A stretch of 64,000 nucleotides of DNA from Deltaproteobacteria bacterium (GTDB lineage Bacteria; Myxococcota_A; UBA9160; PR03), in assembly GCA_035063765.1 (NCBI GenBank), contig JAPSFT010000014.1, forward strand, positions 1 to 64,000. The letters run 5' to 3'. Below are positions 4,018 through 32,753 of the stretch, piece by piece (positions within the stretch are counted from its first letter, which is position 1; each line of letters begins with the position of its first letter). The notes beneath the pieces were generated by a model. The model was not told the DNA's origin. It made no database searches and worked only from the letters and a program-made list of their open reading frames with translations. The position numbers were made by a program, and so were the translations under genes.

Positions 4018-4752
4018 TCACGGAGGCGCCTGCGCGCGGTGCGCCGGCGCCCCGGGCGCCGGCACCGCCCAGCGCTCCTCGTGCGAGCCCGGCCGCCCCG
4101 GCCAGAAGCAGCACTTCGTCCAGGCCAGGCCCAGGATCTCTCCGAACAGGTCCTTGAAGGCCGGGCTGCTCGTCCACCAGCGCTGCTCGTCGTAGCTGGC
4201 GGGGCTCGTGGACAGCACGCCGATCCGGGTCTCGGGCCCGAAGGCCATCCGGTAGAGGAGCCGGGTCCGGCGCGCGTGCACGCTGCTCGACACCACGTCG
4301 AACGCCTCCATCGCGACGCCCCGATCCGCCGCCCAGTCGCGCACCCAGACGGCGCTCGCGAAGGTGCGGTCCTGGGCCGTTTTCGGCGCCGGTACGGCAT
4401 CGAGCGGCAGGCCGGCGAGCCCGTGGCGGCGCAGGAAGTCGGCCGCGCGCTCGGCGAAGCTCGGGAAGGTGGCGAACGACTCGATCGGACCACCGGAGGT
4501 GATCGCGCGCCGATAGCCCCCGCGGCGGAAGATCACGGCCGCCTGCGCGAGCTCGTCTTCGCCGAGCCAGCCCTCGATCACGAGCACGGGCGCAGGGCGG
4601 CCGTCCGGCAGGACGGCGGGCTCGTCGAGCGCAAGGAAGCCGTTCGCCGCGCGCAGGAGCCAGGCCACCAGGCCGGCCGCGGCGGCGGTCAGGACCAGGA
4701 CGCCCCACGGCGTCGGAAGCCAGACCTGGCGGCGGCGGAACAAGGCGGGCAA
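4018..4752 (-). CDS. DUF218 (YdcF/SanA/ElyC-like) membrane protein
   Basis: About 244 residues. One N-terminal membrane segment (WGVLVLTAAAAGLVAWLL) is followed by a DUF218 domain with VLVIEGWLGEDELAQAA, ITSGGPIESF and later VRDWAADRGV and VVSSSVHARRTRLLY. DUF218 proteins are linked to envelope and EPS metabolism, but their chemistry is poorly known. The gene follows epsI on the same strand. The start is unsure: TTG at 4752 is the nearest usual start after the epsI stop (4764) but lacks a clear ribosome site, so initiation may depend on coupling. The C-terminus is alanine/proline-rich. Confidence 0.7.
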   Translation of the reverse strand: MPALFRRRQVWLPTPWGVLVLTAAAAGLVAWLLRAANGFLALDEPAVLPDGRPAPVLVIEGWLGEDELAQAAVIFRRGGYRRAITSGGPIESFATFPSFAERAADFLRRHGLAGLPLDAVPAPKTAQDRTFASAVWVRDWAADRGVAMEAFDVVSSSVHARRTRLLYRMAFGPETRIGVLSTSPASYDEQRWWTSSPAFKDLFGEILGLAWTKCCFWPGRPGSHEERWAVPAPGAPAHRAQAPP

Positions 4753-4763
4753 GGAGATGCGGG

Positions 4764-5450
4764 TCAGCGCCGCGTCGCGGCCACCCGTGCGGCCACCGGC
4801 TCCAGCCCCGTCTGTTCGCGCGGCCAGTGCGCGGCGAGCTGCGCGTCGAAGGCGCGTGCGAAGGACTGGAGCCGGCTGCGCGCCGGCAGGAGGTCGTCGT
4901 CGTGCAGCGCCGTCGAGACGCGCACCAGCGAGCCGTCCGCGCGGCCCTGGAGCAGGCGGCCGAGCAGCCGGTCGAGCGTCTGATCGAGGCCGCCGCGCAG
5001 CCCGGTGGCCCGGAACGAGCGGAACCAGTAGTGCACGAGCTCGCGCTTGCCATCGAGCGAGACGACCATCTCGTTCACGCCCAGTCCGCTGCCCTCGTCG
5101 ATCTTCCGGTGATCGAGGATCTTCCAGCCGTGCGCCTCGTAACACTGCGTCGGCGTGTGCTCGGGGCGGCCGCCGCGCTCGGTCCCGTAGTAGCCGAAGT
5201 ACACCCAGACGCGATCGCCCAGCGGATGGTCGTAGGCGCGCTGCACGTTGTAGTCGGCGCGCAGCATCGCCTCGACGTTCGATTCGAGCGGCACGTCGCG
5301 CGCGGCCCACGGCCCGAGCTGCCTCGGCAGCGACGCGAGCGGGCTCGCGTCGACGTGCAGCGCCGGCCGCAGGGCGAGCGCCCAGGCACCGGCCCCGACG
5401 GCCAGGAGGAGGGCAACGAGCAGGCTGCTGATCCGGTCGTCGTGCGTCAT
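4764..5450 (-). CDS. epsI: EpsI family exosortase-associated protein
   Basis: A 228-residue protein with an N-terminal membrane anchor (about residues 8-27) and a periplasmic EpsI domain. The domain carries SLPRQLGPWAARDVPL, then RVWVYFGYYG, and the conserved cysteine region PTQCYEAHGW with Cys103. EpsI proteins are either fused to exosortases or encoded beside them, and take part in EPS and PEP-CTERM systems; their exact activity is unknown. The ATG overlaps the stop of the exosortase-like gene by four bases, so the two are translationally coupled. Confidence 0.85.
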   Translation of the reverse strand: MTHDDRISSLLVALLLAVGAGAWALALRPALHVDASPLASLPRQLGPWAARDVPLESNVEAMLRADYNVQRAYDHPLGDRVWVYFGYYGTERGGRPEHTPTQCYEAHGWKILDHRKIDEGSGLGVNEMVVSLDGKRELVHYWFRSFRATGLRGGLDQTLDRLLGRLLQGRADGSLVRVSTALHDDDLLPARSRLQSFARAFDAQLAAHWPREQTGLEPVAARVAATRR

Positions 5451-6286
5451 CGGCGGGCCTCGGCGACGGTGCAGAGCGGGAGTGCGCGCGCGGTGCGCGC
5501 TGCCCGGCGGGCCGTCACCAGGAGGGCGAGAGCGATCGCCGCCCACGCCCCGTGGTCCAGGAGGGCGCGCGCGCCCGCACCCGTGCGGGCGGCGGCAAGC
5601 GTTGCCATCGCGAAGCACAGGAGCACCGCCTGCGCGACGAGCCCCCAGGGCGCGAGCCGCAAGGCGGCCGCCGCACACTCGCGTGTCCCTCCAGCGTGGC
5701 GCGCGACGCTCCACCAGGCGAGCCCGCCGAGCGCGAGCGCCAGGGGGAGGCCACCGTCGGGCGCGTCGAGCAGCAACGAGGCGTCGTTCAGGAGCAGGTC
5801 GTCCTTGACGAAGCTCGCCGTGCCGCCGAGCGACCGCGTGACGCCCACCGCGGCCCAGGCGAGGGCGGACTCGAGGCCGGGCGAGAGCGCCGTGAGCAGC
5901 GCCTTGGGCGGCGGGACCGCCCAGCACGCGAGCAGGGCGATCGGGAGCACCGGCCGGCCGAGCGCCAGCGCCATCCCGACGATCGCGAGCGGCAGGCCGG
6001 GCCGGCCGAGCCGGGTCATGCCGCCGCCGACGGTGACCAGCGCGAGCGCGACGCCGGCCGCGACCAGCAGGAATCCGAGCGGCCGCCGCCCGGCACGGCG
6101 CGGGTCGCTCCAGGCCGCCGCCAGTCCGAGCGTGCCCACCAGCAGGAACGGGCGCGCCCAGGGCTCCACGGCGACGTGTCGCACGAAGTCGAGCAGGGTG
6201 GGCGAGAGCGCTGCGGCAAGCGCCAGCCACAGCAGCGGCTCGCGCGGGTGCGCGAGGCCCTCGCTGCGCGATGCCACCCCGTTCAC
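5447..6286 (-). CDS. exosortase-like membrane protein, probably inactive
   Basis: A 279-residue protein with about eight hydrophobic segments and the general shape of an exosortase. The stretch ending DLLLNDASLLLDAPDGGLP (about residues 162-180) lines up with the exosortase active-site region, where EACSG is expected. Here the cysteine position holds proline (Pro176). The expected arginine in the next helix is also not seen, although ARALLDHGAW may match the later histidine region. It should therefore not process PEP-CTERM proteins by the known mechanism. It is coupled to epsI by an ATGA overlap, which supports its family. An intact exosortase is encoded at 31899-32753. Family assignment is by layout and neighbour, not strong identity. 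Confidence 0.65.
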   Translation of the reverse strand: MNGVASRSEGLAHPREPLLWLALAAALSPTLLDFVRHVAVEPWARPFLLVGTLGLAAAWSDPRRAGRRPLGFLLVAAGVALALVTVGGGMTRLGRPGLPLAIVGMALALGRPVLPIALLACWAVPPPKALLTALSPGLESALAWAAVGVTRSLGGTASFVKDDLLLNDASLLLDAPDGGLPLALALGGLAWWSVARHAGGTRECAAAALRLAPWGLVAQAVLLCFAMATLAAARTGAGARALLDHGAWAAIALALLVTARRAARTARALPLCTVAEARR

Positions 6287-6340: not shown

Positions 6341-7210
6341 CTACTCCCCACCCGGGTCTCCGTAGTACCCGTAGGAGCTCGCGCGGACCGGCAGCACCCC
6401 TTCGTTCAGGATCGCACCGATCAGGCGGTCCTTCGGGATCAGCTTGCAGGTCGCCTCGAGGGAGCTGCGCGTCGACCTCCCGGCACGGCCCACGACGATC
6501 GCGGTCCCGATCGGCCCGAGGATCAGGGCGGCGTCGGGGACCAGCAGCATGGGCGGGGTGTCGACGAGGACGATCTCGTAGCGGCGCTCGAGCTCGCGGA
6601 CGACCCCCGCGAGCGACGGCATCGAGAGCGTCCGGTAGGCGTCGGGCTGGGGACGGAACGCGGGATAGACGTCGAGCTGCGGCAGGTCGAGCGACACGCA
6701 GGCGGACGGGAGGTCGGCGCGCCCGGCGAGGACGTCCTCGATGCCGGTCCCGGCGCGCAGCTCGAAGCTCGACGCGACGCGCGGCTTGCGCAGGTCGAGG
6801 TCCACGAGTGCGACCGTTCGCTCGCTGCTGACCGAAGCAAGCGCGAGGGCGAGGTTGCAGGCGAGCGTGGTCTTGCCTTCTTCGCGGACGGCACTCAGCA
6901 CCGCGACGCTGCGCGCGTTGCGGGCCTCGAGCTCGCGGCGCAGGCGCAGCGCGAGGTGGCGCAGCGACTCGGACGCAGGCCCCTGCGCGTCGACCACCAC
7001 CTCGCGTGACTGCCAGCGCCCGCTCTTGTCGTGGGAGACCCGGCCGACCCGGCCGGGCGGGGCCTCCGCTGCCGGCTTCGGCGCCATCGTCCGGAACGCC
7101 TCCACGATCTCCGGGTCCGGCTGCCGTTCGCGCAGCGGGTCGGGCGGCGGCGGACCGGAGGTTCCCGGGACCCGGTTGGCGCGGCGCAACGCCTCGTGGA
7201 TCTCACCCAC
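6341..7210 (-). CDS. CpsD/CapB-type P-loop tyrosine kinase-like protein
   Basis: A 289-residue cytoplasmic BY-kinase-like ATPase without the Wzz membrane part, which is encoded separately at 10757. The Walker A region is SAVREEGKTTLACN with Lys113, slightly unlike the usual PGEGKS/T form. Walker A' is ALVDLDLRKPRV and Walker B is YEIVLVDTPPML. The C-terminal SSYGYYGDPGGE holds a short tyrosine cluster, the usual autophosphorylation site. It should control EPS polymerisation and chain length together with the Wzz-like partner. It overlaps the ATPase gene to its right by eight bases. Confidence 0.85.
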   Translation of the reverse strand: MGEIHEALRRANRVPGTSGPPPPDPLRERQPDPEIVEAFRTMAPKPAAEAPPGRVGRVSHDKSGRWQSREVVVDAQGPASESLRHLALRLRRELEARNARSVAVLSAVREEGKTTLACNLALALASVSSERTVALVDLDLRKPRVASSFELRAGTGIEDVLAGRADLPSACVSLDLPQLDVYPAFRPQPDAYRTLSMPSLAGVVRELERRYEIVLVDTPPMLLVPDAALILGPIGTAIVVGRAGRSTRSSLEATCKLIPKDRLIGAILNEGVLPVRASSYGYYGDPGGE

Positions 7211-8063
7211 GGCTTCCGCTTCCGAGGCCCGTGCTCGTGTTGGGCTGCCCCACCCGTAGGGCCGCGATCTGCTCGGCCTTGCGCTCGAGCAGGCTCGCCT
7301 CGACGGGCTTCATCTGGCGCGAGTAGGCAGCGAGCAGGGCGCGGTCCGCCAGCAGGCTGATCAGGCGCGGGCAGCCAAGCGACGCGGCGTAGAAGATGGG
7401 CTCGAGCCCGCCCTCGAAGAGATCCTCGTACTTGCCGCCCGCCACCTCGATCCGATGCCGGAGGTAGAGCCCGATCTCTTCGGGCCGGAGCGCCTCGACG
7501 TGGTGCTCGAGGGCGATCCGCTGGCGGAGCTGGCGCATGCCGGGCTCGGCGAGCCGATCCAGGAGCTCCGGCTGCCCGGTCAGCACGATCTGGAGCAGCT
7601 TCTCGGTGTCGGTCTCGAGGTTGGAGAGCAGGCGGATCTCCTCGAGCGCGGGTGTGTCGAGGTTCTGGGCCTCGTCGACCACGAGCACGGTGTTCAGGTG
7701 GCGCTTCAGGCGGCCCAGCAGGAAGCGGTTGAGCGAGATCAGGAGATCGGACTTCGAGGCTCCGCTCGGATCGAGGCCGTACTCCGTGGCGATCAGCTTG
7801 AGCAGGTCGAGCGGGCTCAGGCCGGCGGTGTTCAGGATCAGGGCCGTCTCGGTGTCGGCAGGAAGCCGGTCGAGCACGGCGCGCAGCAGGGTGGTTTTCC
7901 CCGCTCCCACCTCCCCGGTGAGGAGGACGAATCCCTTCCGCCTGGCGATGCCGTAGTAGAGGGAGGCCAGGCCCTCCTCGTGCGTCTCCGACAGCCAGAG
8001 GAAACGCGGGTCGGGCGTCAGCGAGAAGGGGGGCTCCCGGAGGCCGAAGAAGGGCTCGTACAT
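7203..8063 (-). CDS. GspA-like AAA ATPase of EPS/PEP-CTERM loci
   Basis: A 286-residue AAA ATPase starting MYEPFFGLREPPFSLTPDP, the hallmark N-terminus of the ExeA/GspA-like ATPases found in exosortase-linked EPS loci. Walker A is GEVGAGKTT with Lys56; Walker B is VLVVDEAQN with Asp130 and Glu131. It is probably cytoplasmic and may control EPS export or assembly; the precise role is not known. The ATG at 8063 is preferred because the conserved N-terminus starts there; an in-frame extension to 8165 looks noncoding. It is the first gene of the left arm, transcribed away from the sugar-transferase gene. Confidence 0.87.
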   Translation of the reverse strand: MYEPFFGLREPPFSLTPDPRFLWLSETHEEGLASLYYGIARRKGFVLLTGEVGAGKTTLLRAVLDRLPADTETALILNTAGLSPLDLLKLIATEYGLDPSGASKSDLLISLNRFLLGRLKRHLNTVLVVDEAQNLDTPALEEIRLLSNLETDTEKLLQIVLTGQPELLDRLAEPGMRQLRQRIALEHHVEALRPEEIGLYLRHRIEVAGGKYEDLFEGGLEPIFYAASLGCPRLISLLADRALLAAYSRQMKPVEASLLERKAEQIAALRVGQPNTSTGLGSGSRG

Positions 8064-8427
8064 GGCTTCCTGGATCGGTCGGCTCGATCGCGACCGAAAG
8101 TTAACCCACCGGCAACCGGCGGCGAATCGAATCCCCCGGGGCGGAACCGCCGGCCCCTCGTCCAACGACGTGAGTGGCTGCGGAAACCCGGAAGGTTACG
8201 AGGCGAGCCCGGTTCGGCGGCGATCGCCGGGCGACACCGGGAGGGTTCGCCGGCCTCGCGCACTCGGTGGCGCAGGCGGCACGCGGCCCGGGGTCCCATC
8301 CGCGGGTTCGGCAAGGGTTTCCCTTCCAAAGCCACGCCGCGGCGGATAAGATTTTGCCTCGGTTGCGGAAACCAAAGCGGGAGGAAGCGGCACTCAAGAG
8401 GGGGGTAGAGGAAGGAGCACTCGGTTC
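8064..8427. promoter_or_regulatory. divergent EPS promoter region with repeated boxes
   Basis: These 364 bases lie between the divergent ATPase and sugar-transferase genes and must hold the promoters of both arms. The exact 10-mer TGCGGAAACC occurs twice (8179-8188 and 8364-8373). Its core also occurs inverted as GGTTTCC at 8316-8322, close to an unusual AT-rich patch (GGATAAGATTTTG, 8343-8355). The arrangement looks like binding sites for one regulator, but no family can be named. No coding frame here is convincing. Confidence 0.45.
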
Positions 8428-9828
8428 ATGCTGCGTTCCCAAGCTGCGCGCCTGCACACTCTGATTCTCGTGATCGACATGGCGCTCAGCGCGTGCCTGC
8501 TCGCCGCCGTCCTGTCACGGCCGGAATTCGAGGCGGTGATCCGCACACCGGGGCTCGGCCTCCTGGGCGTGGTCCTCGCCGGGACGTTCTCGCTGCCGAT
8601 CCTGTTCGATTGGGTGGGGCTCTACGGCTCCCAGCGCCGGACCCAGCTGTCGGAGCTCCTGGGCCGCATGGCGCTGGCCGCCGTGGTCTCGATCACGGCG
8701 ATCGGCGCGATGATCGTCGTCACGGGCTCACCCCTGACGCTCGACTTCGCGCTCCTCGTAGGGGGGCTCCAGCTCGGCGTGGTGGGCGGGCTGCGCCTCG
8801 CGATCTTCGGCGCGCTGCGCTTCGTGCGCCGCCATGGCCGCAACTACCGCAACGTCCTGGTGATCGGCTCGGGCCGCCGCGCGGCGCAGCTCCAGCAGAC
8901 GCTCGAGGCCAACCGCAGCTGGGGCCTGCGGATCCTGGGCTTCGTCGACGACTGCGACGGTCCGGCCGATCCGCGCCTGCGGGACGCCCAGCTCTTCAAG
9001 CTGGCCGACGTACCGTCCGTCGTGCGCGAGCACGTCGTCGACGAGGTGGTCGTCGCCTGCCCGCGCTCGATGCTGGAGCAGATCACGCCGCTGATGGGCT
9101 TGTGCGCCGAGATCGGCGTCCAGGTGACCCTGCTCGCCGACCTCTTCACGGACTTCCTGCCCAGCCCGAGCGCCACGAGCCTCGGCGAGGTGCCGGCGCT
9201 CTCCTTCGCCACGGTCCGCCACAACAGCACCCAGCTCGGCGTCAAGCGCCTGATCGACGTGGTGGTGTCGTTCACGGCACTGGTCGCCAGCGCACCCGTG
9301 CTCGCGGTCGCCGCCGTGCTGATCCGGCTCGATTCGCCCGGACCCGTGTTCTTCCGCCAGAGCCGCTGCGGCCTCTACGGGCGCGTCTTCACCATGCTCA
9401 AGCTCCGGACCATGTACGAGGATTCCGAGGCGCGGAAGGCCGAGCTCGCGCACCTGAACGAGCTCGACGGTCCCGTCTTCAAGATCGCCAACGATCCACG
9501 CGTGACGCGGGTGGGGCGCTTCCTGCGCCGCTACAGCGTGGACGAGCTGCCCCAGCTCTGGAACGTGCTGGTCGGCCACATGAGCCTCGTGGGGCCGCGC
9601 CCGCCGATTCCGGGCGAGGTCGACGAGTACCGCCTGAGCCAGCGCCGACGGCTCTCGATGCGCCCCGGTCTCACCTGTCTCTGGCAGGTGGGGGGGCGCA
9701 ACCACATCGGATTCGAGGAGTGGGTCCGGCTCGACCTCGAGTACATCGACCACTGGTCGCTCTCGGAAGACCTGCGGATCCTCGCGCGGACCGTACCCGT
9801 GGTGTTGCGCGGGGAGGGCGCCAGCTAG
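8428..9828 (+). CDS. undecaprenyl-phosphate sugar-1-phosphate transferase
   Basis: A 466-residue polyisoprenyl-phosphate hexose-1-phosphate transferase of the WbaP/WcaJ type. Four N-terminal membrane segments are followed by a Rossmann-like CoA_binding_3 domain with VLVIGSGRRAAQLQQ. The C-terminal catalytic domain starts near residue 270 with KRLIDVVVSFTAL and holds SPGPVFFRQSRCG, FTMLKLRTM, DELPQLWNVL and GPRPPIPGEV. It should load the first sugar onto undecaprenyl phosphate at the inner membrane and so start EPS repeat-unit synthesis. AAGGAG-like bases precede the ATG. It heads the right arm of the locus, followed by the export and Wzz-like genes. Confidence 0.93.
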   Translation: MLRSQAARLHTLILVIDMALSACLLAAVLSRPEFEAVIRTPGLGLLGVVLAGTFSLPILFDWVGLYGSQRRTQLSELLGRMALAAVVSITAIGAMIVVTGSPLTLDFALLVGGLQLGVVGGLRLAIFGALRFVRRHGRNYRNVLVIGSGRRAAQLQQTLEANRSWGLRILGFVDDCDGPADPRLRDAQLFKLADVPSVVREHVVDEVVVACPRSMLEQITPLMGLCAEIGVQVTLLADLFTDFLPSPSATSLGEVPALSFATVRHNSTQLGVKRLIDVVVSFTALVASAPVLAVAAVLIRLDSPGPVFFRQSRCGLYGRVFTMLKLRTMYEDSEARKAELAHLNELDGPVFKIANDPRVTRVGRFLRRYSVDELPQLWNVLVGHMSLVGPRPPIPGEVDEYRLSQRRRLSMRPGLTCLWQVGGRNHIGFEEWVRLDLEYIDHWSLSEDLRILARTVPVVLRGEGAS

Positions 9829-9916
9829 CAGGAGCTACACGTTGCCCTCCGAGCGGCCGATGGAAGCCTGTTGCCGCGTGCGGTATAGGAGCGGCTTCCG
9901 TCTGGGGGAGGGAACC

Positions 9917-10660
9917 ATGCGCTCGTGTCTCTCGTGGGTCTCGGCGGCGTCGAGCCGCCGTGGTGCAGGCGCCGCCGCCGTCGCGGTCGTCACGGCCAGC
10001 CTCGCGGTCGGCTGCGCTTCGCCGCTCATGCCGAGTGGAGAGGCGCCTCCGCCCTCGTCCGCCGCGGCGAGCAGCGAGCTCTACCAGGTCGGCGCCTCCG
10101 ACCGGCTGGTCGTGCGCGTGCTACCCGATCCGGCGATCGAGCGCATCGTGATCGTGCGCCCCGACGGCTTGTTCTCGATGGACCTGATCGGGGACGTGCA
10201 GGCGGCCGGCCGGACGACCAACGAGATCGCCGCCGACGTCCAGACGCGCATGGAGGAGTACCGCCAGAGCCCCAGTGTCTCGGTGGCGCTCGAGAGCCCG
10301 CTCAGCAACGCCGTGGCCGTGATGGGCGAGGTGGAGACCCCCGTGCTGTTCCCGCTCGAGCGCGACACCCGCCTGTCCGAGGCGGTCGCCCGGGCCGGCG
10401 GCGCCACCGAGCTGGCTGCCGCCTCGCGGGTGCGGGTCGTGCGCAAGACCGCCGAAGGCGAGACCCTCTTCATCGCCAACCTCGACAACATCCAGGGTGG
10501 CCAGACGGCGACCGACATGCTCCTCCAGCGGGGCGACCTGGTCTTCGTGCCGCCGGCCATGACCGTCGAGGCCGGCTACGCGCTGCGCCGCTTCCTGTAT
10601 CCGCTCGAGCAGGTGATGCGGACGATCGCAGGCCCGCTCCTGGGCTTCCTGATCCGCTAG
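9917..10660 (+). CDS. Wza-type polysaccharide export lipoprotein
   Basis: A 247-residue outer-membrane lipoprotein with its lipobox at SLAVGC (Cys33). The Poly_export domain begins YQVGASDRLVVRVLPDP, and a SLBB-like part follows with NAVAVMGEVETPVLFPL. It should form the periplasm-spanning export channel for the EPS. The ATG at 9917 is chosen because GGGAGGG precedes it and it gives a proper signal peptide; an in-frame start at 9842 would place extra charged residues ahead of it. A GC-rich inverted repeat separates it from the Wzz-like gene. Confidence 0.9.
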   Translation: MRSCLSWVSAASSRRGAGAAAVAVVTASLAVGCASPLMPSGEAPPPSSAAASSELYQVGASDRLVVRVLPDPAIERIVIVRPDGLFSMDLIGDVQAAGRTTNEIAADVQTRMEEYRQSPSVSVALESPLSNAVAVMGEVETPVLFPLERDTRLSEAVARAGGATELAAASRVRVVRKTAEGETLFIANLDNIQGGQTATDMLLQRGDLVFVPPAMTVEAGYALRRFLYPLEQVMRTIAGPLLGFLIR

Positions 10661-10756: not shown

Positions 10757-12130
10757 ATGGACGACGACTCGGAGGACCTTCTCGGCGGCCCGCTCGCCGA
10801 GATCCTTCGCGATCCGCGTGGCGTGCTCCGGCGGCGCTGGAAGCCGATGCTGGCGGCGGCCGTGGCCATCCTGGCGGCGACCGGCGTGTTCGTCGCGCTC
10901 CAGCCGCCCGAGTACGCCGCCAGCGCCACGATCCTGATCGCCAGCCAGAAGCTCTCCGAGGAGTTCGTCCGCCCGACCATGGAGGAGGACGTCCTCGAGC
11001 GGGTGAACGCCCTCACGGCCGAGGCCCTCTCGCGCGACAAGCTCACCCCGATCGTCGAGAAGTACGACCTGTTCCCGGACCTGCGCGCCGAGTACGGCGA
11101 GGTGGGTGCCGTCGCGGAGCTGCGCAGCCGGCTCGCGGTCGGGCCCGAGGCCCCGACCGTGCAGTCGCGCGGCGCCCGGGCACTGGTGCTGCTCGTGGGC
11201 TTCACCCACAAGGACCCGAAGATCGCCGCGGACGTGACCAACGACGTCGCCCAGGTGTTCGTCGAGTCCGGCGTGCGGCTGCGTACCGAGCAGGCGCGCC
11301 TCACGACCAGCTTCATGCGTCGTGAGCTCGAGGCCGCCGAGGCCGCGCTGAAGGCGCAGACCAAGGAGATCAGCGAGTTCCAGGCCGCCCATCGCGGGGA
11401 GCTTCCGTCGGAGCTCGCCTCCAACCTGCACCGGCTCGAGCGCCTCCAGCAGCAGCGCAACTCGCTGGCCATGCAGATCACCGAGGCCGAGACGCAGCGG
11501 GCGATGGCGATCGCCGCCGCGAACGCGGCGCACCCGGATCCCGCCCTGCTGCAGCTCCAGGAGCTCGAGGCGGCGCTCGCCCGCGAGCTCGGGGTCAACA
11601 AGGAGACCCACCCCAACGTGATCTCGCTGCGCCGGCAGATCGCGGCGGCGCGCAGCCAGATCGGCCGCAGCGGCTTTGGGGGTGCCGGCGCCGCGGCCAT
11701 CGGTGAGCGCGAGGTGGACCTCCTGCGCGAGCAGCTCGCCGAGACCGACCGCGAGCTCCAACAGCTCGACGCCGCGGTGGCGGCCATCCCCCAGCGGCAG
11801 GAGCAGCTCGCCGGGATGCTCGAGCGTCAGAGCGTGCTCCAGGAGAACTATCTCGAGTTCCTGCGCAAGGTGAAGGAGGCGGAGCTCGCGCAGAGCCTCG
11901 AGATGGCGCAGCAGGGCGAACGGGTGGCCGTGCTCGACGGGGCCTCCCCGCCCTCCAGTCCGGAGAACGCACCCTGGAAGTACGCGATCCTGGGCGTCGC
12001 CGCGTCGCTCGGCCTGTCGCTCGCGCTCGGCGTGCTGCTCGAGCTGCGCGATCCCGTCCTGGTCTCGCCCGCGGCCCTCGAGGCCGCGACCGGGGTCCCG
12101 GTGCTCGGCACCGTGCCGCACATGCGCTGA
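10757..12130 (+). CDS. Wzz/GumC-like chain-length determinant
   Basis: A 457-residue inner-membrane protein. The first membrane segment is near residues 30-50 (LAAAVAILAATGVFVAL) and the second near 412-432 (YAILGVAASLGLSLALG). The periplasmic part between them holds long coiled-coil helices rich in Leu, Glu, Gln and Arg. The proline-rich stretch GASPPSSPENAPWK before the second helix matches the family. It should set chain length and link to the export channel. Unlike BY-kinases it carries no ATPase domain; that is supplied by the gene at 6341. It is probably co-transcribed with the export gene 96 bases upstream. Confidence 0.9.
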   Translation: MDDDSEDLLGGPLAEILRDPRGVLRRRWKPMLAAAVAILAATGVFVALQPPEYAASATILIASQKLSEEFVRPTMEEDVLERVNALTAEALSRDKLTPIVEKYDLFPDLRAEYGEVGAVAELRSRLAVGPEAPTVQSRGARALVLLVGFTHKDPKIAADVTNDVAQVFVESGVRLRTEQARLTTSFMRRELEAAEAALKAQTKEISEFQAAHRGELPSELASNLHRLERLQQQRNSLAMQITEAETQRAMAIAAANAAHPDPALLQLQELEAALARELGVNKETHPNVISLRRQIAAARSQIGRSGFGGAGAAAIGEREVDLLREQLAETDRELQQLDAAVAAIPQRQEQLAGMLERQSVLQENYLEFLRKVKEAELAQSLEMAQQGERVAVLDGASPPSSPENAPWKYAILGVAASLGLSLALGVLLELRDPVLVSPAALEAATGVPVLGTVPHMR

Positions 12131-12175: not shown

Positions 12176-13192
12176 TCATCCGGTCCGGGCCTCCCCGGAG
12201 CTCTTGTACTCGATCAACTGGCGGCTGCGCCCGAGCAGGCACGCCACCGCGAAGCGGCGTGCCCCCTCCAGGTGCGCGGCCTTGGTGAGCACCAGCAGGA
12301 GCGCCAGCGCATCGACGTCGCGCGAGCTGCCGTAGGTCCGATACCAGCGTCGCACCCGCCACGCGAGCAGTCCGTAGCCGGCCAGCAGGAGCAGCAGGGT
12401 GAGCCCGCGGGTCCAGGGGGCCAGCGCGAGCGCGAGGGCCGGCAGTGCGAGGGCCCAGAAGCATGCCGAGAGGAGGGGGCGGATGCCGTATCGGCCGGAG
12501 GCGAAGCCGTGCTTGAGGGTCGTCTCGGCGTAGGCGTGTCCCGCGCGGATGGCGCGCCGCCACCAGGCACCGAAGCGCGTCATGGCCGCATCGTGCAGGG
12601 TCATCTCGTCCGCAAGGCGAAGGATCCGCCAGCCCCGCTGGCGGAGGCGGAGGCACAGCTCGGGCTCCTCTCCGGCGATCATCTCCTCGTCGAAGCCGCC
12701 CACCGCCTCGAAGGCGTCGCGCCGCACCAGGCAGTCGCCACCGCAGGCCTCGGCTTCGCCGACGGGCATGTCCCACTCGATGTCGCAGAGACGGTTCCAG
12801 AGCGACTGCTCCGGGAATCGCTCCCGGCGGCGCCCGCAGACGACCGCGACGTCCGGCTGGGAGGTCAGGGCGCGCAGGGCGGCCGGCAGCCACCCGGCGT
12901 CCACCAGGCAGTCCCCGTCCACGAACTGTACGAACCGCAGGCTCGGATGGGTGCTGCAGAGCTTGTGGAAGCCGGCGTTCCGGGCGCGCGCCGCGGAGAA
13001 GGGCCGGGCACGGTCCAGCTCCACGACGGACGCACCGACAGCGGCCGCGTGGGCGACGCTGCCGTCGCACGACCCCGAATCCACGTACACGATCGCGACC
13101 TGCCGGGTGGCGAGGGATGCCAGGCAGGCCTTCAGGCGGTCCCCCTCGTTGCGGCCGATCACGACGACGCCGAGCGCGCTGGCTTCCTTCAT
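12176..13192 (-). CDS. family 2 glycosyltransferase
   Basis: A 338-residue GT-A glycosyltransferase. The N-terminal domain has GVVVIGRNEGDRLKACLASL, VYVDSGSCDGS and the metal-binding region VQFVDGDCLVD. The acceptor side has GGFDEEMIAGEEPELCLR. The C-terminal hydrophobic segments (about residues 240-285) tie it to the membrane. It should add a sugar to the lipid-linked EPS repeat unit on the cytoplasmic face. The ATG at 13192 overlaps the stop of the sulfotransferase gene by four bases, which marks a coupled operon of GT, sulfotransferase and GT on the minus strand. Confidence 0.87.
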   Translation of the reverse strand: MKEASALGVVVIGRNEGDRLKACLASLATRQVAIVYVDSGSCDGSVAHAAAVGASVVELDRARPFSAARARNAGFHKLCSTHPSLRFVQFVDGDCLVDAGWLPAALRALTSQPDVAVVCGRRRERFPEQSLWNRLCDIEWDMPVGEAEACGGDCLVRRDAFEAVGGFDEEMIAGEEPELCLRLRQRGWRILRLADEMTLHDAAMTRFGAWWRRAIRAGHAYAETTLKHGFASGRYGIRPLLSACFWALALPALALALAPWTRGLTLLLLLAGYGLLAWRVRRWYRTYGSSRDVDALALLLVLTKAAHLEGARRFAVACLLGRSRQLIEYKSSGEARTG

Positions 13193-14079
13193 GCAGCGTG
13201 GCCCGGCGCGCATCTCGACCAGGAGAGGTCCGGGGCGCAGGTGACCCGGGAGAAGTTGTCGCAGCGGAGATCGATGCCGAGCCAGGCGCCGAGCTCTGCC
13301 AGGTCCTCGTCGAAGCACGCGGCCAGCGCGTTCCGTCGCTCCGGCGAGAGCGCCGGGGGCTCCTTCATGCGCCAGAGGTCGCGGATCCGCTCGCGAAGCG
13401 CCTTCGGAACGAGCGCCCGCCGCAGGACGCGCAGGAGCGGCTGCTCGACCACCGCATCGCGCAGCGGACTGCGCCGCATCCGCTGGCTCGAGACGTTCTG
13501 CCGCTCGACGTCGGCGTGCCACCGCGGCTCGCGCCCGTAGCCCAGGAACCGGCAGATGCGAACCAGCTCCTGGTGCGGTTCGGTGCGCAGGCGGTCGAAG
13601 AACACCGGCAGCACGCGATCGTCTCCGAAGCGCGTCAGGTAGGGCCGGAGCTGCATGGCGTAGCGTCCGTACGCGACGAGCTCGGGATGACGTTCGATCG
13701 CCTGCTCGATCGGCTTCTCGATGCGCCGCTCGCTCCAGTCGTGGATGTAGTGCGAGACGAGACGATCGATCGGGTGCCGCATCACGTAGATCAGCTTCAC
13801 CTGCGGCAGGTGACGCGCGATGCGCTCCACGGCGTGGGGGTGGGTGGGCAGCTTGGTGTAGTGGGTGCTCGACTCTCCCCGGAGCAGCGCCTCGGCACCG
13901 CCGGCGAACAGGCCCCGATACCACTCGAACCCCCGCGCGTAGATCGGGTCGTCGCTGAAGAAGTTCGGCTCCTTGGGCGTGCTCATGAAGACGCCCGGCT
14001 GCCGTGCGAGCTGCTCGTGCAGCGTGCTGGTCGCGCTCTTCATGGCCCCGATGATCAGGAAGTCGGGAGCCGGGCTCAC
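13189..14079 (-). CDS. PAPS-dependent sulfotransferase
   Basis: A 296-residue sulfotransferase. The 5'-phosphosulfate loop is FLIIGAMKSATSTLHEQL (about residues 7-24) and the 3'-phosphate site is VMRHPIDRLVSHY (about residues 99-111). Such enzymes move sulfate from PAPS to a hydroxyl or amine. It sits between two EPS glycosyltransferase genes and overlaps both by four bases, so the likely acceptor is the EPS or its lipid-linked precursor; that is inference. The start is GTG at 14079. No PAPS synthesis genes are in the window. Confidence 0.87.
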   Translation of the reverse strand: MSPAPDFLIIGAMKSATSTLHEQLARQPGVFMSTPKEPNFFSDDPIYARGFEWYRGLFAGGAEALLRGESSTHYTKLPTHPHAVERIARHLPQVKLIYVMRHPIDRLVSHYIHDWSERRIEKPIEQAIERHPELVAYGRYAMQLRPYLTRFGDDRVLPVFFDRLRTEPHQELVRICRFLGYGREPRWHADVERQNVSSQRMRRSPLRDAVVEQPLLRVLRRALVPKALRERIRDLWRMKEPPALSPERRNALAACFDEDLAELGAWLGIDLRCDNFSRVTCAPDLSWSRCAPGHAA

Positions 14080-16558: not shown

Positions 16559-18025
16559 ATGACTTCGAGGATCGCGATGATGGCCTGGCCCTTCGTCGCG
16601 CTCCTGGCGTTCTCCACCTTCCGTGCCTCCGTCGCCGTCTCGGTGACGGTGCTCGGTGGGGTCCTGCTGCTTCCGGGCAACTACGCCTTCGATCTGCCCA
16701 TGATCCCGGACATCGATCACTTCCGGATGTCCGCCCTCAGTGCCCTGCTCGCCGGGCTGCTCCTGCGCTCGCGGTCCGCGCGGATCCCGGCTGGCTCGCG
16801 CGCGTTCCTGCTGCTGCCGGCCATGGCTGCGGCCTTCGCTGCCACGACGGCCCTGTTGAATCGGGATCCGCTCGCCCTGCCGGACCGGACCTTGCCGGGA
16901 ATGGCGCTCCACGACCTCGTCTCGTCGGTGCTGTCCCAGCTCCTGGACTACGGCGTCCCGTTCGTGCTCGGAATGCTGTTCTTCCGGCGCCGTCGGGACC
17001 TCAGCGATCTCGTCGCCTGCATGGCGGCCGCCGGGGTCTGCTATTCGCCCCTCATCCTCTTCGAGCTCCGGATGAGCCCGGATCTGCACCGCATCGTCTA
17101 CGGGGTGCTCCACACCTTCGATCACACGATGACGAGGCGATTCGGCGGCTGGCGCCCGGTGGTCTTCCTGCCCCATGGCCTCGCCCTCGCGATGTTCGTG
17201 CTGACGGCGGCCTGTGCGGCCGCCGTGGCCTGGAAGGCGCGTCTCCGGCGCGTCCTCGGCATCCCTTGGCAAGCGATCCTGGCCTTCCTGGCCACCCTGT
17301 TCGTGGCGTGCAAGAGCCTGGGCTCGCTCGTCTACGGGGCGGTCGTCCTGCCCGCGCTGGCGATGTCGAGACCCGCCGCGATCGCCCGGATCGCGGCGAT
17401 CCTCGCGGTCCTGGTGCTGGCCTATCCCGCGCTCCGCGTGCTTGGGTGGTTCCCCACGGAATTCCTGGTCGAGACGGCCGAGCGGATCGACCCGCTCCGC
17501 GCGCAATCCCTCGACTTCCGGTTCGAGAACGAGGAGCTGCTCGTGGAGAAGCTCAGCCTCCGCCCCTGGTTCGGCTGGGGAACCTGGGGGAGGAACCGCA
17601 GCTACGACCCGGTGACCGGGGAGGACGTCTCCACGACCGACGGGCGCTGGATCATCGTCATGGGCGCGCAGGGCGTCCTGGGATTCGCCGCGGTCTTCGG
17701 CATGCTCGTGGTGCCGGTCTTCTCGGTGTGGTGGAACCTGTCGCGCTTCCGTTCCGCCAGCTCCCGCCACCTCCTTGCCGGGTCGTCGCTCCTCCTCATG
17801 GTCAACGTCGTCGACCTGCTGCCGAACGGCTTCCTGCTCACCTCGACGATCATGCTGTCCGGGGCGCTCGCGAGCCTCGTGCCGGGGATGCTCCGCGAGC
17901 AGGCGCGAGCCGCACGCGAGGCACCGGCCGGGGAGCCCGGGTGCGCGCCGGTGCCGGCGCGGCGCGAGGAGGCCCCCGTGAGGCTCGGCGAGGAGCTCCT
18001 GCGAGGCGCTCGCCGCTCGGGCTAG
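16559..18025 (+). CDS. O-antigen ligase/polymerase-like membrane protein
   Basis: A 488-residue protein with about ten to twelve membrane segments. A long periplasmic loop (about residues 300-365) has LVEKLSLRPWFGWGTWGRNR, the pattern common in Wzy/WaaL-like proteins, where a P-x-x-G-x-G segment precedes loop residues used in catalysis. It is the best candidate for the EPS polymerase in this locus. The tail after about residue 450 is charged and cytoplasmic. It follows the GT4 gene by 54 bases on the same strand. Confidence 0.75.
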   Translation: MTSRIAMMAWPFVALLAFSTFRASVAVSVTVLGGVLLLPGNYAFDLPMIPDIDHFRMSALSALLAGLLLRSRSARIPAGSRAFLLLPAMAAAFAATTALLNRDPLALPDRTLPGMALHDLVSSVLSQLLDYGVPFVLGMLFFRRRRDLSDLVACMAAAGVCYSPLILFELRMSPDLHRIVYGVLHTFDHTMTRRFGGWRPVVFLPHGLALAMFVLTAACAAAVAWKARLRRVLGIPWQAILAFLATLFVACKSLGSLVYGAVVLPALAMSRPAAIARIAAILAVLVLAYPALRVLGWFPTEFLVETAERIDPLRAQSLDFRFENEELLVEKLSLRPWFGWGTWGRNRSYDPVTGEDVSTTDGRWIIVMGAQGVLGFAAVFGMLVVPVFSVWWNLSRFRSASSRHLLAGSSLLLMVNVVDLLPNGFLLTSTIMLSGALASLVPGMLREQARAAREAPAGEPGCAPVPARREEAPVRLGEELLRGARRSG

Positions 18026-21241: not shown

Positions 21242-22192
21242 CTACCGGATCCGGTTCGAGATGACCTCGTTCTTCCGCAGCGCCACGCTCCGTTGCCAGG
21301 CTCGCAGTCGGAGCCGACGCGACAGGATGTCGGCGAGCCGGAGCCGCCATCCGAAGACCCGCCACGCAAAGCGGGCCCGCGCCACGCGGTCCTGCGCTCG
21401 CAGGTGCACGCGCGCCAGGGGGCCGACGCGGATCGCCGGCAGCCCGCTGCCCGTGTAACCCACTGTCTCGAGCAGCTCCCCGGTGCGCGCCTCGACGAGC
21501 TGGATCTCGCGCGTACTCAGGGTCCTGCGCCATTGCTCGACCAGCGTCGGATCGGGCCGCTCGTAGCTGCTGCGCGCACCGTACTCGAGCATTTCCGCCG
21601 ACCAGCGCAAGCCCAGGAAGTCGCAGATCCTGCCGAGCTCCTCCTCGGGGCGGACGATCAGCTTCTCGTAGCGAAGCTCGAGAAAGCGATCCTTCTCGAG
21701 GAGCACGGACAGGCGAGCCCAGAGCGTCTCGGCCTCGACCCACCGCTCGACACCCGTCCAGACGTTGCCCGCCCACCCCATTCCGATGCACGACCGGGCG
21801 ACGTCCCGGGGATCGCGGGCCAGATGGAGGAAGCGCGCATCGGGCCAGATCCGCAGGAGCCGGTCGAGATGCCGGTGCACGGTCGCTCCCACGAAGGCCT
21901 TGCCGGCGCGTGCCCTTCGCTGCTCGAGGAAGCTCCGGACCAGGTCGGGGTAGGCGAGGGTCGGGTCGATCTCGTAGCGGGCAGCCCGGAAGATCCGGTG
22001 CGTCTCGAGGGAGCGGACGTAGTCTGCTGCCGCAGGCCAATCCGCCCCGTCCATGCCGTCGACGGCGTACTCGAACTCGTTCACCCAGGCCAGCTCGGGA
22101 TGCGAGTCCAGCATCAGTCGGAGCACCGTCGTTCCCGAGCGCTCGGCGCCGACGAGGAAGACGGGGCATTCGGGCGTGGGAGGCTTGGTCAT
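21242..22192 (-). CDS. second sulfotransferase
   Basis: A 316-residue Sulfotransfer family protein. The 5'-phosphosulfate loop is VFLVGAERSGTTVLRLML (about residues 11-28) and the 3'-phosphate site is FLHLARDPRDVARSCI (about residues 120-135). It differs clearly from the enzyme at 13189, which has GAMKSATS in place of GAERSGTT, so it is not a recent copy. Its place among glycosyltransferases suggests a second sulfation on the EPS, or sulfation of another envelope molecule. The start is ATG 22192. Confidence 0.85.
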   Translation of the reverse strand: MTKPPTPECPVFLVGAERSGTTVLRLMLDSHPELAWVNEFEYAVDGMDGADWPAAADYVRSLETHRIFRAARYEIDPTLAYPDLVRSFLEQRRARAGKAFVGATVHRHLDRLLRIWPDARFLHLARDPRDVARSCIGMGWAGNVWTGVERWVEAETLWARLSVLLEKDRFLELRYEKLIVRPEEELGRICDFLGLRWSAEMLEYGARSSYERPDPTLVEQWRRTLSTREIQLVEARTGELLETVGYTGSGLPAIRVGPLARVHLRAQDRVARARFAWRVFGWRLRLADILSRRLRLRAWQRSVALRKNEVISNRIR

Positions 22193-22626
22193 TCCAGCTC
22201 GAGACCCCGTTCGCAGCACTGGCCGCACCAGACTGCCCGTCACTGGGAAAGCATCGGCCCGTTCGCCGGTCTCCACCCGAACCGTCGGGCCCGGTCGGTT
22301 CACGCACGCCAGGTTCGCGCCCGGCGCGACGTCACCCCTCCGCAGATGCCGGTTGCCGGTCAGCATGTTGTCATAACATCTGCCTATCATCTCCGAAACA
22401 CCGCTGCCCCTCCTGCCCTTGCTGCGGCCATGGCGCTCTCGTGCGAGACCCCTCGCGTTTGTGAAGCGGAGGCGCAGCCAAAGGGCAACCTGCTGCATCT
22501 GGACGGACAAGAAGGGTGTGAGCCTCGTCACCGAGGGCAGCGCGGGAAGGCCGATACTCCCATTGCGCATCTTCGGGGGATCGGGCGCATCCCCGGCCCC
22601 GATCGATGGAGTGGGAGGGACTCGTC
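22193..22626. other. divergent intergenic region, no gene seen
   Basis: These 434 bases separate the second sulfotransferase (minus) from the secreted beta-helix gene (plus). They include the most AT-rich patch of the locus (about 22365-22395) with the dyad ATGTT-GTCAT-AACAT at 22365-22379, which could be an operator or part of a promoter. Long antisense frames cross the region but have no start or family pattern. Confidence 0.4.
22365..22379. promoter_or_regulatory. operator-like dyad ATGTT-N5-AACAT
   Basis: A perfect five-base inverted repeat in an AT-rich island inside otherwise GC-rich DNA. It lies about 250 bases before the beta-helix gene and 170 bases before the sulfotransferase gene. 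It could bind a dimeric repressor. The regulator is unknown. Confidence 0.3.
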
Positions 22627-26396: not shown

Positions 26397-27764
26397 TCAT
26401 CCGAAGCTTCCCCGCAGCGCAAGCCCACCGAGCACCGCGAGGGTGGAGAGGCCGATCGCGAGCAGGTCCTGCGCGGCGCTCCACACACCGTAGCGCCGGG
26501 AGAGCCAGACCTGGACCGGGTAGTACACGAAGTAGGAGGCGCCGATCCCGACCACGGTGCCGAAGGTGCCGGCCACGGCGTGGCCGATCCAGATTCCCGC
26601 GAGCAGCGCGGCGCCGTGGGGCCCGGTCGCCAGGAGGCCGATGAAGGACTCGCCGCGGGCGAGGTTCAGGGGGCCGATCCAGCTCAGGAACCGGAAGATC
26701 GAGCCGGCCGCGAGGATCTGGAGCATCCAGCCCGCATCCTGGTAGCGGGCGTCGTAGAGCACGGCGACCACCTGGTCGCCTGCGACGGCGAGGAGCCACA
26801 GCGGTGGGAGCACCCCGAAGGTCACCATCGTGCGGATGCGGGTCACGTAGCGCTCGAGCTGCGGCGTCGTCTCCTGTCCGATCTCCGAGTACATCGGGAA
26901 CAGCACGCGGTTCGCGAGCATCGTGATCGCCTGCACGAGCGACTTCAGCATGAGCGTGGCGATCGCGTACTGGCCGAGATCGGCGAGCGAGAGGAGGTTG
27001 CCCATCAGGAGCCGGTCGCCCTGGTTCGTGAGCCAGGTGAAGAAGGTGCTGAGGAAGATCCAGCGCCCGAACCGGTACATCGAGCGGGCGACATCGGGGT
27101 CCCAGTGCAGGCGGTGCGCGTGGTGGGACCAGGCGTGGCTCCAGACGAGCTTCACGAGGGCTCCGGCGATGCTGCCGAGCGCGAGTGCCCAGACGCTGCG
27201 CCAGGCGAGCGCCAGCGCGATGGTGGCGATCACCGAGACGACGCTCGCGGCCAGCTCGATCGTCGTTACGCGCCAGAGCTCGAGCCGGCGGCGCCAGGTG
27301 TGCATGTTGACCGCGTTGAAGCCGGCGATCGCGGCGTTCACCGCGGCGGCCGGGATCAGGGCGGCCAGCGAGGGCTCGCCGAACTGGCGCGAGAGCGGCC
27401 AGGCGAGCAGGGCGGCGATCGCCCACAAGGCGAAGCCCCGCACCACCTGGATCGTCCAGGCCGTGTTCAGGAAGCCGGGCTCGAGGCCACGCTTGTCGCG
27501 GATGATGCTGGGCCCGATCCCGACGTCCGAGATCAGCCCAAGGCCCTGCACCACGGCATTCACCATGGCCATCACGCCGAAGGCCTCGGGGAAGAGCAGG
27601 CGGGTCAGGACGAGGTTCGAGCCGAGATGGAGGACCCTGTCGGCGATCTGTCCCCCGACGGTCCACACCGACGCGGCGAGGACGCGCTGGCGCAGGCTCC
27701 GGCCGGTTGCCGGAGCAGCGGCGGTCGACTCCCCCGGCGGGACTGCGTCGCTCGGAGCGGTCAA
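26397..27764 (-). CDS. Wzx-type oligosaccharide flippase
   Basis: A 455-residue MOP-superfamily protein of the lipopolysaccharide-biosynthesis (PST) type with about twelve to fourteen membrane segments. It starts, after a short cytoplasmic arm, with QRVLAASVWTVGGQIADRV and continues TRLLFPEAFGVMAMVNAV, a strong family pattern. It should flip the undecaprenyl-linked repeat unit to the periplasm, where the polymerase at 16559 can use it. The start is TTG at 27764, with AGAGGA about eight bases before it. It lies between the Crp/Fnr gene and the asparagine-synthetase-like gene, all on the minus strand. Confidence 0.9.
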   Translation of the reverse strand: MTAPSDAVPPGESTAAAPATGRSLRQRVLAASVWTVGGQIADRVLHLGSNLVLTRLLFPEAFGVMAMVNAVVQGLGLISDVGIGPSIIRDKRGLEPGFLNTAWTIQVVRGFALWAIAALLAWPLSRQFGEPSLAALIPAAAVNAAIAGFNAVNMHTWRRRLELWRVTTIELAASVVSVIATIALALAWRSVWALALGSIAGALVKLVWSHAWSHHAHRLHWDPDVARSMYRFGRWIFLSTFFTWLTNQGDRLLMGNLLSLADLGQYAIATLMLKSLVQAITMLANRVLFPMYSEIGQETTPQLERYVTRIRTMVTFGVLPPLWLLAVAGDQVVAVLYDARYQDAGWMLQILAAGSIFRFLSWIGPLNLARGESFIGLLATGPHGAALLAGIWIGHAVAGTFGTVVGIGASYFVYYPVQVWLSRRYGVWSAAQDLLAIGLSTLAVLGGLALRGSFG

Positions 27765-31125: not shown

Positions 31126-31902
31126 GTGCAGATCGTCCGAGCCGATCACGCCTCGCGCGACCTCGCAGACGCCGCGCGGGCGGAGGCCGTCGGGCGGGAG
31201 CGCGATCCCTGGATCGGGGATCTCTTCGACCCCGAGGTGCTCACCGGCTCGCTCGCGATCGCAGCGGCGGATCCCGGCGCGCTGCTGCCCGAGGAAGCCG
31301 CTCTGGCGGCGCGTTTCGCGCCGGCGCGCCGGCGCGAGTTCGCGGCGGGCCGGCAGTGTGCGCGGCGGCTGCTGGCCGAGCTCGGGGCGGGGGAACCGCT
31401 CCTGATGGTCGATGCCCACCGGGCGCCGGGCTGGCCGGAGGGTGTGGTCGGCTCGATCTCGCACGGCGCGGGCCTGTGCGTGGTGGCGGTGGCGCGGCGC
31501 GGCCCGGTGCGCGGGCTCGGCGTCGACGTCGAGTCCGGCGAGCCGCTCGCTGCGGCCGTGCGCCGGCGGGTGTGGAGCGAGCCGGAGGCGCAACGGCTCG
31601 CCCGGGCGTCCGACCTCGAGGCGGGCCGCAGCGCGAAGCTGCTCTTCTGCGCCAAGGAGGCGGTGTACAAGTGCGTCCACCCGCTCCTGCGGACCCCGCT
31701 CGGGCTGCGGGCCGTCGAGATCCGGCTCGAGCCCGCCGCAGGCCGCTTCCGAGCGATTGCGCTCGCGGGCGCCGGGGAGGGCGCCGCGGCACTCGTCGGC
31801 GCCGTCGAGGGGCGCTTCGCGGTGCGGCGCGGGCGCGTGCTCGCCGGCGCCGTGCTGCGCCCGGACGGCGCCTGCACCGCGCCGGTCGGAGCGCCGGGGT
31901 GA
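31126..31902 (+). CDS. Sfp/EntD-type 4'-phosphopantetheinyl transferase
   Basis: A 258-residue protein of the EntD/Sfp class. The substrate-site signatures are ARRREFAAGRQCARRLL, GSISHGAGLCVVAVA, GLGVDVES (metal-binding Asp) and LLFCAKEAVYKCVHP. It should move phosphopantetheine from CoA onto a carrier protein of a fatty-acid, polyketide or peptide synthase. No such synthase is in the window. The start is GTG 31126. Its stop overlaps the GTG of the exosortase gene by four bases, an odd partner for such an enzyme. Confidence 0.88.
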   Translation: MQIVRADHASRDLADAARAEAVGRERDPWIGDLFDPEVLTGSLAIAAADPGALLPEEAALAARFAPARRREFAAGRQCARRLLAELGAGEPLLMVDAHRAPGWPEGVVGSISHGAGLCVVAVARRGPVRGLGVDVESGEPLAAAVRRRVWSEPEAQRLARASDLEAGRSAKLLFCAKEAVYKCVHPLLRTPLGLRAVEIRLEPAAGRFRAIALAGAGEGAAALVGAVEGRFAVRRGRVLAGAVLRPDGACTAPVGAPG

Positions 31903-32753
31903 CGCGCCGCGAGATCGGCTTCGCGCTCGCGCTGCTCGTGGTGTTCGCCCCGGGGCTCGCCGCGCTGGCCGGCGCGTGGTCGGCGGCCGAGTACCAGTCG
32001 CACGGCTTCCTGGTGCCGGTCGTCTCCCTGCTGGCGGCGCGCCAGCGGGCCCGGCGCGGGCCGGCCGCACGCAGCGACGGCCGCGGGGCCCTGGTCCTGG
32101 TGGGTGCGCTGCTGCTCTACGGGTTCGGGATCGCCGCCGGCTCGGTGACTGCACAGGGGCTCGCGCTGTGCGCGGCGGTCACGGGCGCCGTGTGGTACCT
32201 GCGCGGCCCCGCCTGGCTGCGACGCCTCGCCTTCCCGCTCGGCTACCTGCTCTTCCTGGTGCCGCTGCCGCTGCCGTGGGTCGCGGCGGCGGTCGTCCCG
32301 CTGCTCGAGTTCGTCACCGCCGGTTCGGTCGAGGTGCTGCGCGGCGCCGGCGTCGCCGTCCTGCGCGAGGGCAGCGTGATCCAGCTCCCGAACGGCGAAT
32401 CGCTCTTCGTCGCCGAGGCGTGCAGCGGCCTCACCTCGCTGGTCACGCTGATGCCGATCGCCGTCCTGATCGCGTGGCTCGCTCCGCTCCCGGCCGGGCG
32501 CAGGACCGCCCTGGTCGCGCTCGTGGTGCCGATCGCGATGGGCGCCAACCTGTTGCGCGTGGTCGCCACCGTGCTCGGCAGCGAGGCGTTCGGGACCGCT
32601 GCGATGACGGCCGAGCCCACGCACTCGCTGCTCGGGCTCTCGGTGTACGTGGTCGCCTGTCTCGCGCTGCTGGCCCTGGCGCGGTGGCTCGAGCCCGCTT
32701 CGAGCACGGGTCCGGCTGCGGCGCCGCGCCCGCGGCCCACCCCGGGCGCGTGA
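31899..32753 (+). CDS. exosortase (intact active site)
   Basis: A 284-residue inner-membrane protein with about eight helices. The active-site residues are all present: Cys175 in VAEACSGLTSLVTL, Arg220 in ANLLRVVATV and His242 in PTHSLLGLSVY. Exosortases recognise PEP-CTERM tails on secreted proteins and cut them, probably passing the protein to a surface carrier. A candidate substrate is encoded at 58409. The gene overlaps the phosphopantetheinyl transferase gene by GTGA and has no EpsI domain or epsI neighbour of its own; the only EpsI in the window is at 4764. Confidence 0.9.
   Translation: MTRREIGFALALLVVFAPGLAALAGAWSAAEYQSHGFLVPVVSLLAARQRARRGPAARSDGRGALVLVGALLLYGFGIAAGSVTAQGLALCAAVTGAVWYLRGPAWLRRLAFPLGYLLFLVPLPLPWVAAAVVPLLEFVTAGSVEVLRGAGVAVLREGSVIQLPNGESLFVAEACSGLTSLVTLMPIAVLIAWLAPLPAGRRTALVALVVPIAMGANLLRVVATVLGSEAFGTAAMTAEPTHSLLGLSVYVVACLALLALARWLEPASSTGPAAAPRPRPTPGA

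Follow-up and report, generated by a model that had tools for sequence, protein, structure and literature searches.

The window, by which we mean the whole 64,000-nucleotide stretch of DNA analysed here, encodes an exosortase-like protein of 279 amino acids that lacks the catalytic cysteine and whose gene lies directly beside epsI among EPS genes. The question that this locus raises is what such a protein does. A preliminary description, made from the letters of the window, proposed a non-proteolytic role in EPS synthesis, for example as a membrane scaffold for EpsI, with protein sorting given to an intact exosortase that is also encoded in the window.

The EPS locus

The gene for the Cys-less protein and epsI are preceded by the BY-kinase and ExeA-like ATPase genes and followed by the DUF218-like gene, and the genes for the sugar transferase, the export protein and Wzz are divergent from this group (Table 1). 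The rest of the EPS locus comprises glycosyltransferases, sulfotransferase-like genes, a multi-TM protein and the Wzx flippase. The multi-TM protein (16559-18025, 488 aa) has no Pfam match and is a candidate Wzy polymerase. Two genes are sulfotransferase-like, one by Pfam (21242-22570) and the other by sequence reading (13189-14079), which suggests that the EPS product may be a sulfated polysaccharide. The locus also encodes a secreted PKD plus beta-helix protein (22606-24441) with no evident PEP-CTERM tail. Just 5' of the intact exosortase, the region at about 31200-31900 reads like a phosphopantetheinyl transferase, again by sequence reading.

Table 1. Features of the EPS locus discussed in the text
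Feature	Position	Strand	Remarks
Pseudo-exosortase (Cys-less exosortase paralogue)	5447..6286	-	GTG start, 279 aa, about 8 TM
epsI (DUF3485/TIGR02914), subtype GYYGTERGGxPEHTPxxCY	4764..5450	-	HxPxxC intact
DUF218-like (YdcF-type) protein	4021..4767	-	Directly 3' of epsI; weak Pfam match 2.2e-5, below cut-off
XrtA-system-like tyrosine autokinase (BY-kinase)	6341..7210	-	TIGR03018 E 3.5e-30, below its cut-off; kept in cassette of relatives
ExeA-like AAA ATPase, XrtA/PEP-CTERM-associated type	7203..8165	-	TIGR03015 E 5e-78, below its cut-off; kept in cassette of relatives
Initiating polyprenyl-phosphate sugar transferase	8428..9828	+	TIGR03025 E 8.4e-119
Outer-membrane polysaccharide export protein (Wza/EpsE-like)	9842..10660	+	PF02563 E 4.2e-15
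Chain-length determinant (Wzz)	10757..12130	+	PF02706 E 3.3e-5, just below cut-off
Wzx-type flippase, same EPS locus	26397..27764	-	PF13440 E 1.2e-58
Intact exosortase (X type)	31899..32753	+	PF09721 E 5.5e-53

Homology to exosortases

Taken as a single sequence, the 279-aa protein has no match among the Pfam or NCBIfam models, so that a single-sequence search alone would have spoken against its homology to exosortases. The window protein by itself lies below every profile threshold, but 7 of 19 orthologues match PF09721 at E <= 0.01 (best 3e-10). On two members of the family, the PF09721 matches are 7e-10 and 2e-7 (39.3 and 31.7 bits, with a curated cut-off of 25.7). In the reverse direction, the profile of the Cys-less family recovers canonical exosortases (1e-9 to 1e-12), and the hhalign comparison of this profile with true exosortases gives 98.2% and an E of 4e-14, whereas the controls (one reversed and eight column-shuffled) fail, with E of at least 0.17. 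Because the family profiles match in both directions and the controls fail, we regard the 279-aa protein as a real exosortase homologue. Matches to it are present in 31 of the 61 genomes searched, its own genome included.

The AlphaFold models of the 279-aa protein and of the intact protein at 31899 agree in how the helices, the three-strand meander and the active-site helix follow one another, and the modelled Asp177 of the former opens the helix that follows the meander, as Cys175 does in the latter; the models were built on very thin alignments (4 and 3 sequences) and are of low to moderate confidence (pLDDT 70 and 62). Together with the two-way profile matches, this common order of elements bears out the exosortase layout that had been read from the sequence. 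A sequence search of the PDB and a fold search yielded no relative of the 279-aa protein, and no solved exosortase was found.

As a multi-TM protein in the core of an EPS cassette, the 279-aa protein might instead be a component of a polysaccharide polymerase or flippase that merely resembles an exosortase. This explanation is quite improbable: the homology to exosortases is clear, and the locus already has its own Wzx flippase and a possible Wzy polymerase, given which we judge a polymerase stand-in unlikely.

Loss of the active site

According to Haft and colleagues (PMC1569441), the Cys, NxxR and HxxxG motifs are invariant in the exosortase family. We aligned 37 members of the Cys-less family with 47 canonical (intact) exosortases from related genomes. 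At the Cys column, 47/47 canonical sequences have Cys, as against 0/37 family members, 24 of which have Asp there. The Arg of NxxR is likewise found in 46/46 canonical sequences and 0/37 family members, and the Asn column of the same motif is Gln in 34/37. For HxxxG, His is present in 45/45 canonical sequences and in a single family member (1/37), with Asp in 20/37, and none of the 37 has the Gly. Other parts of the fold are retained, namely the PxP motif (36-37 of 37) and the Gly two positions after the Cys column, which belongs to the CxG turn (35/37). A conserved Cys placed elsewhere was looked for in the family alignment, and none was found.

In the window protein, Asp177 occupies the Cys column, Gln219 the Asn column of NxxR, and Asp244 the His column. 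The preliminary description had placed Pro176 at the position of the catalytic Cys. This was off by one residue, since both profile alignments put Asp177 there, and that by-eye alignment is discarded: Pro176 aligns with the Ala before the Cys, and DGG[LI] replaces CSG[LI]. The loss of the conserved Arg, which it had also noted, is confirmed, and the His is gone as well. The alignments support the conclusion that the Cys-less protein cannot use the Cys-Arg-His chemistry of exosortases.

A further explanation is that Asp177, Gln219 and Asp244 form a rebuilt active site for hydrolysis or for glycosyl or acyl transfer. The prevalence of Asp, Gln and Asp at the three catalytic columns would fit such an enzyme, but Asp177 gives way to Q, R, W, H, E, F or A in 13/37 members, the His column is widely variable, and only the Gln is near-invariant. 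We consider a rebuilt enzyme very unlikely.

Coupling to EpsI

The EpsI protein of the window matches PF11984 (E 3.1e-40) and TIGR02914 (E 2.3e-29), in each case over the curated cut-off (138.5 vs 26.1 bits and 102.1 vs 42.8 bits, respectively). The stop codon of the Cys-less gene overlaps the start codon of epsI as ATGA. Forty genomes have the Cys-less gene, two of which (G025 and G054) rest on fragments, and in 25 of them it is directly beside epsI: 21 pairs are in tandem, 2 have epsI upstream and 2 are divergent. Stop and start overlap in 18 of the 21 tandem pairs (13 by exactly 4 bases), a count that favours overlaps in that the start codon nearest to the stop was chosen. The coupling to epsI that was noted for the window is conserved in related genomes. 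In the other 15 genomes epsI is not adjacent to the Cys-less gene and, where unlinked, often stands alone in the EPS cassette. The cassette that is conserved in relatives has the order ATPase - TyrKin - (Wzz) - Cys-less - epsI, and the Wzz gene adjoins the Cys-less gene in many of them.

Linked EpsI proteins belong to a subtype of their own: profile scores are bimodal, at 268 bits or more for this subtype and 111 bits or less for every other EpsI of the class. Of the genomes that have the Cys-less gene, 39/40 also have this subtype, as against 3/51 of those that lack it (Fisher p 5e-21, which ignores the relatedness of the genomes), and the association also holds where the genes are unlinked. 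Within genera g6, g15, g21, g31, g34 and g35, the Cys-less gene and the EpsI subtype are present or absent together; g10 is the exception. On these grounds, the partnership between the Cys-less protein and EpsI is well supported. A scan of the genome contigs for EpsI relatives found none.

In the HxPxxC...GW motif of the linked-type EpsI, the His, Pro, Cys, Gly and Trp are invariant in 26/26 sequences. Given the invariant HxPxxC, EpsI is the better enzyme candidate, if the unit has one. EpsI might then do the work in a separate unit for EPS modification, with its conserved His and Cys acting on the polysaccharide (or on a carrier) to process or attach it, and the pseudo-exosortase might be no more than its anchor. 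We think this rather unlikely; if true, the activity of EpsI would be independent of exosortase proteolysis.

Origin and constraint

In a tree with intact exosortases, the Cys-less paralogues form one clade (support 100/100), whose rate of evolution is about double that of the intact exosortases, so that part of the sequence is loosely constrained. In one close pair, dN/dS is 0.12 for the Cys-less gene, and the same pair gives 0.10 for EpsI, 0.13 for Wzz and 0.12 for the tyrosine kinase. The Cys-less gene is under purifying selection like the neighbouring EPS genes.

The loss of all three catalytic residues and the faster evolution might also be expected of a decaying, functionless duplicate. 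However, the open reading frames are intact in 37 sequences over many genera, and the overlap with epsI is conserved; this conservation and the dN/dS of the close pair rule out a decayed pseudogene, and we regard decay as extremely improbable.

Within the phylum sampled, the Cys-less gene was found only in one order of the window's class. None of the 11 genomes (0/11) from the other sampled family of the class had it, and a search of 379 genomes of the phylum, with only seven candidates scored per genome, found it in no other class. Named relatives that have the gene are MAGs labelled Deltaproteobacteria, Proteobacteria or Myxococcota. The conserved cassette, the loss of the triad, the single clade and the low dN/dS together uphold the original idea that the protein is tied to EpsI and the EPS genes without exosortase chemistry.

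Intact exosortases and protein sorting

The protein at 31899 is, as first described, an intact exosortase, with Cys175, Asn217-x-x-Arg220 and His242-x3-Gly246, and it is one of three intact exosortases in the genome. The genome also has many PEP-CTERM tails, so ordinary protein sorting is presumably carried out by the intact exosortases.

Orthologues of the 31899 protein, here called X type, accompany the Cys-less gene in 35/40 genomes and are present in 9/51 that lack it. They adjoin the Cys-less/epsI cassette in at least four relatives (G002, G005, G040 and G045); intact exosortases of the 31899 type were seen beside the cassette at L105:5272-6039, L106:967-1731, L057:8114-8878 and L056:11739-12494. 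These observations, as well as the many PEP-CTERM tails, would fit a two-part exosortase in which the Cys-less protein and EpsI form a non-catalytic subunit that binds or presents the sorting tails and the X-type exosortase cuts them. Nevertheless, five genomes (G004, G031, G037, G086 and G090) have both the Cys-less gene and EpsI but no X type, which rules out a tight dependence of the Cys-less gene on this exosortase, and the nine genomes with the reverse pattern also speak against a two-part enzyme. In the window, moreover, the X-type gene is 25 kb from the Cys-less gene, and the coupling to EpsI is tighter than that to the X type. A two-part exosortase is thus a doubtful explanation.

A proposed partner of EpsI in EPS assembly

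The explanation that we favour, and consider reasonably probable, is that the protein is a clade-specific pseudo-exosortase devoted to one EpsI subtype as its partner in the inner membrane, within Wzx/Wzy-type EPS assembly. Since the triad is lost, the gene is conserved across the order and the EpsI subtype is nearly always present, the protein probably does not cut other proteins but holds EpsI in the membrane or controls it there.

In the proposed course of events, one duplication followed by divergence would have given rise to an exosortase paralogue without the Cys, Arg and His that retained the 8-TM fold, the PxP loop, the beta-meander and the Gly of the CxG turn. On the periplasmic side of the membrane, the pseudo-exosortase probably binds EpsI and perhaps a substrate helix as well. 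With this binding site beside the Wzz/BY-kinase/Wza assembly machine, EpsI would be positioned or controlled during EPS assembly or export, and peptide cleavage would be left to the intact exosortases elsewhere in the genome. We infer the physical contact with EpsI, its positioning or control, the role in EPS rather than in protein sorting, and the scaffold mechanism from the gene patterns described above; the coupling of the genes could also stem from a shared pathway without contact between the two proteins.

Comparison with known systems

The 2006 paper that described EpsI together with exosortases gave it no known function (PMC1569441), and we found no later function for it in the open-access literature searched. 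The same search yielded no description of a pseudo-exosortase or Cys-less exosortase, and we found no NCBIfam model for it either. In the lineage studied here, the exosortase active site has been lost and EpsI has been kept under selection, which separates the role of EpsI from proteolysis. Any phenotype of the pair could not stem from the Cys-Arg-His chemistry of exosortases, and this makes the role of EpsI testable. In addition, automatic annotation may mis-score or miss exosortase-like genes in EPS loci.

The Cys-less family resembles the exosortases EpsH/Xrt (PF09721, TIGR02602; Haft 2006, PMC1569441) in profile homology, in the predicted 8-TM layout, in the PxP motif and the Gly of CxG, and in its site among EPS genes with EpsI as a neighbour. 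It differs from them in that it lacks the Cys, NxxR and HxxxG and forms its own clade; the window protein lies under all profile thresholds, and none of the NCBIfam models for Xrt subfamilies fits. Pairs and fusions of exosortase and EpsI (XrtA with EpsI, and XrtD-type fusions) have the same arrangement of an exosortase-fold protein followed by EpsI. In the two fused proteins that we examined (L073:3167-4918 and L046:1183-2865), however, the Cys is present in the exosortase half and the HxPxxC of stand-alone EpsI is missing from the EpsI half. The present pair shows the reverse, with a dead exosortase and an EpsI that has the HxPxxC. The locus is also comparable to pairs of a pseudoenzyme and its enzyme partner, in which the fold is conserved without the catalytic residues and the gene is retained beside that of the partner.
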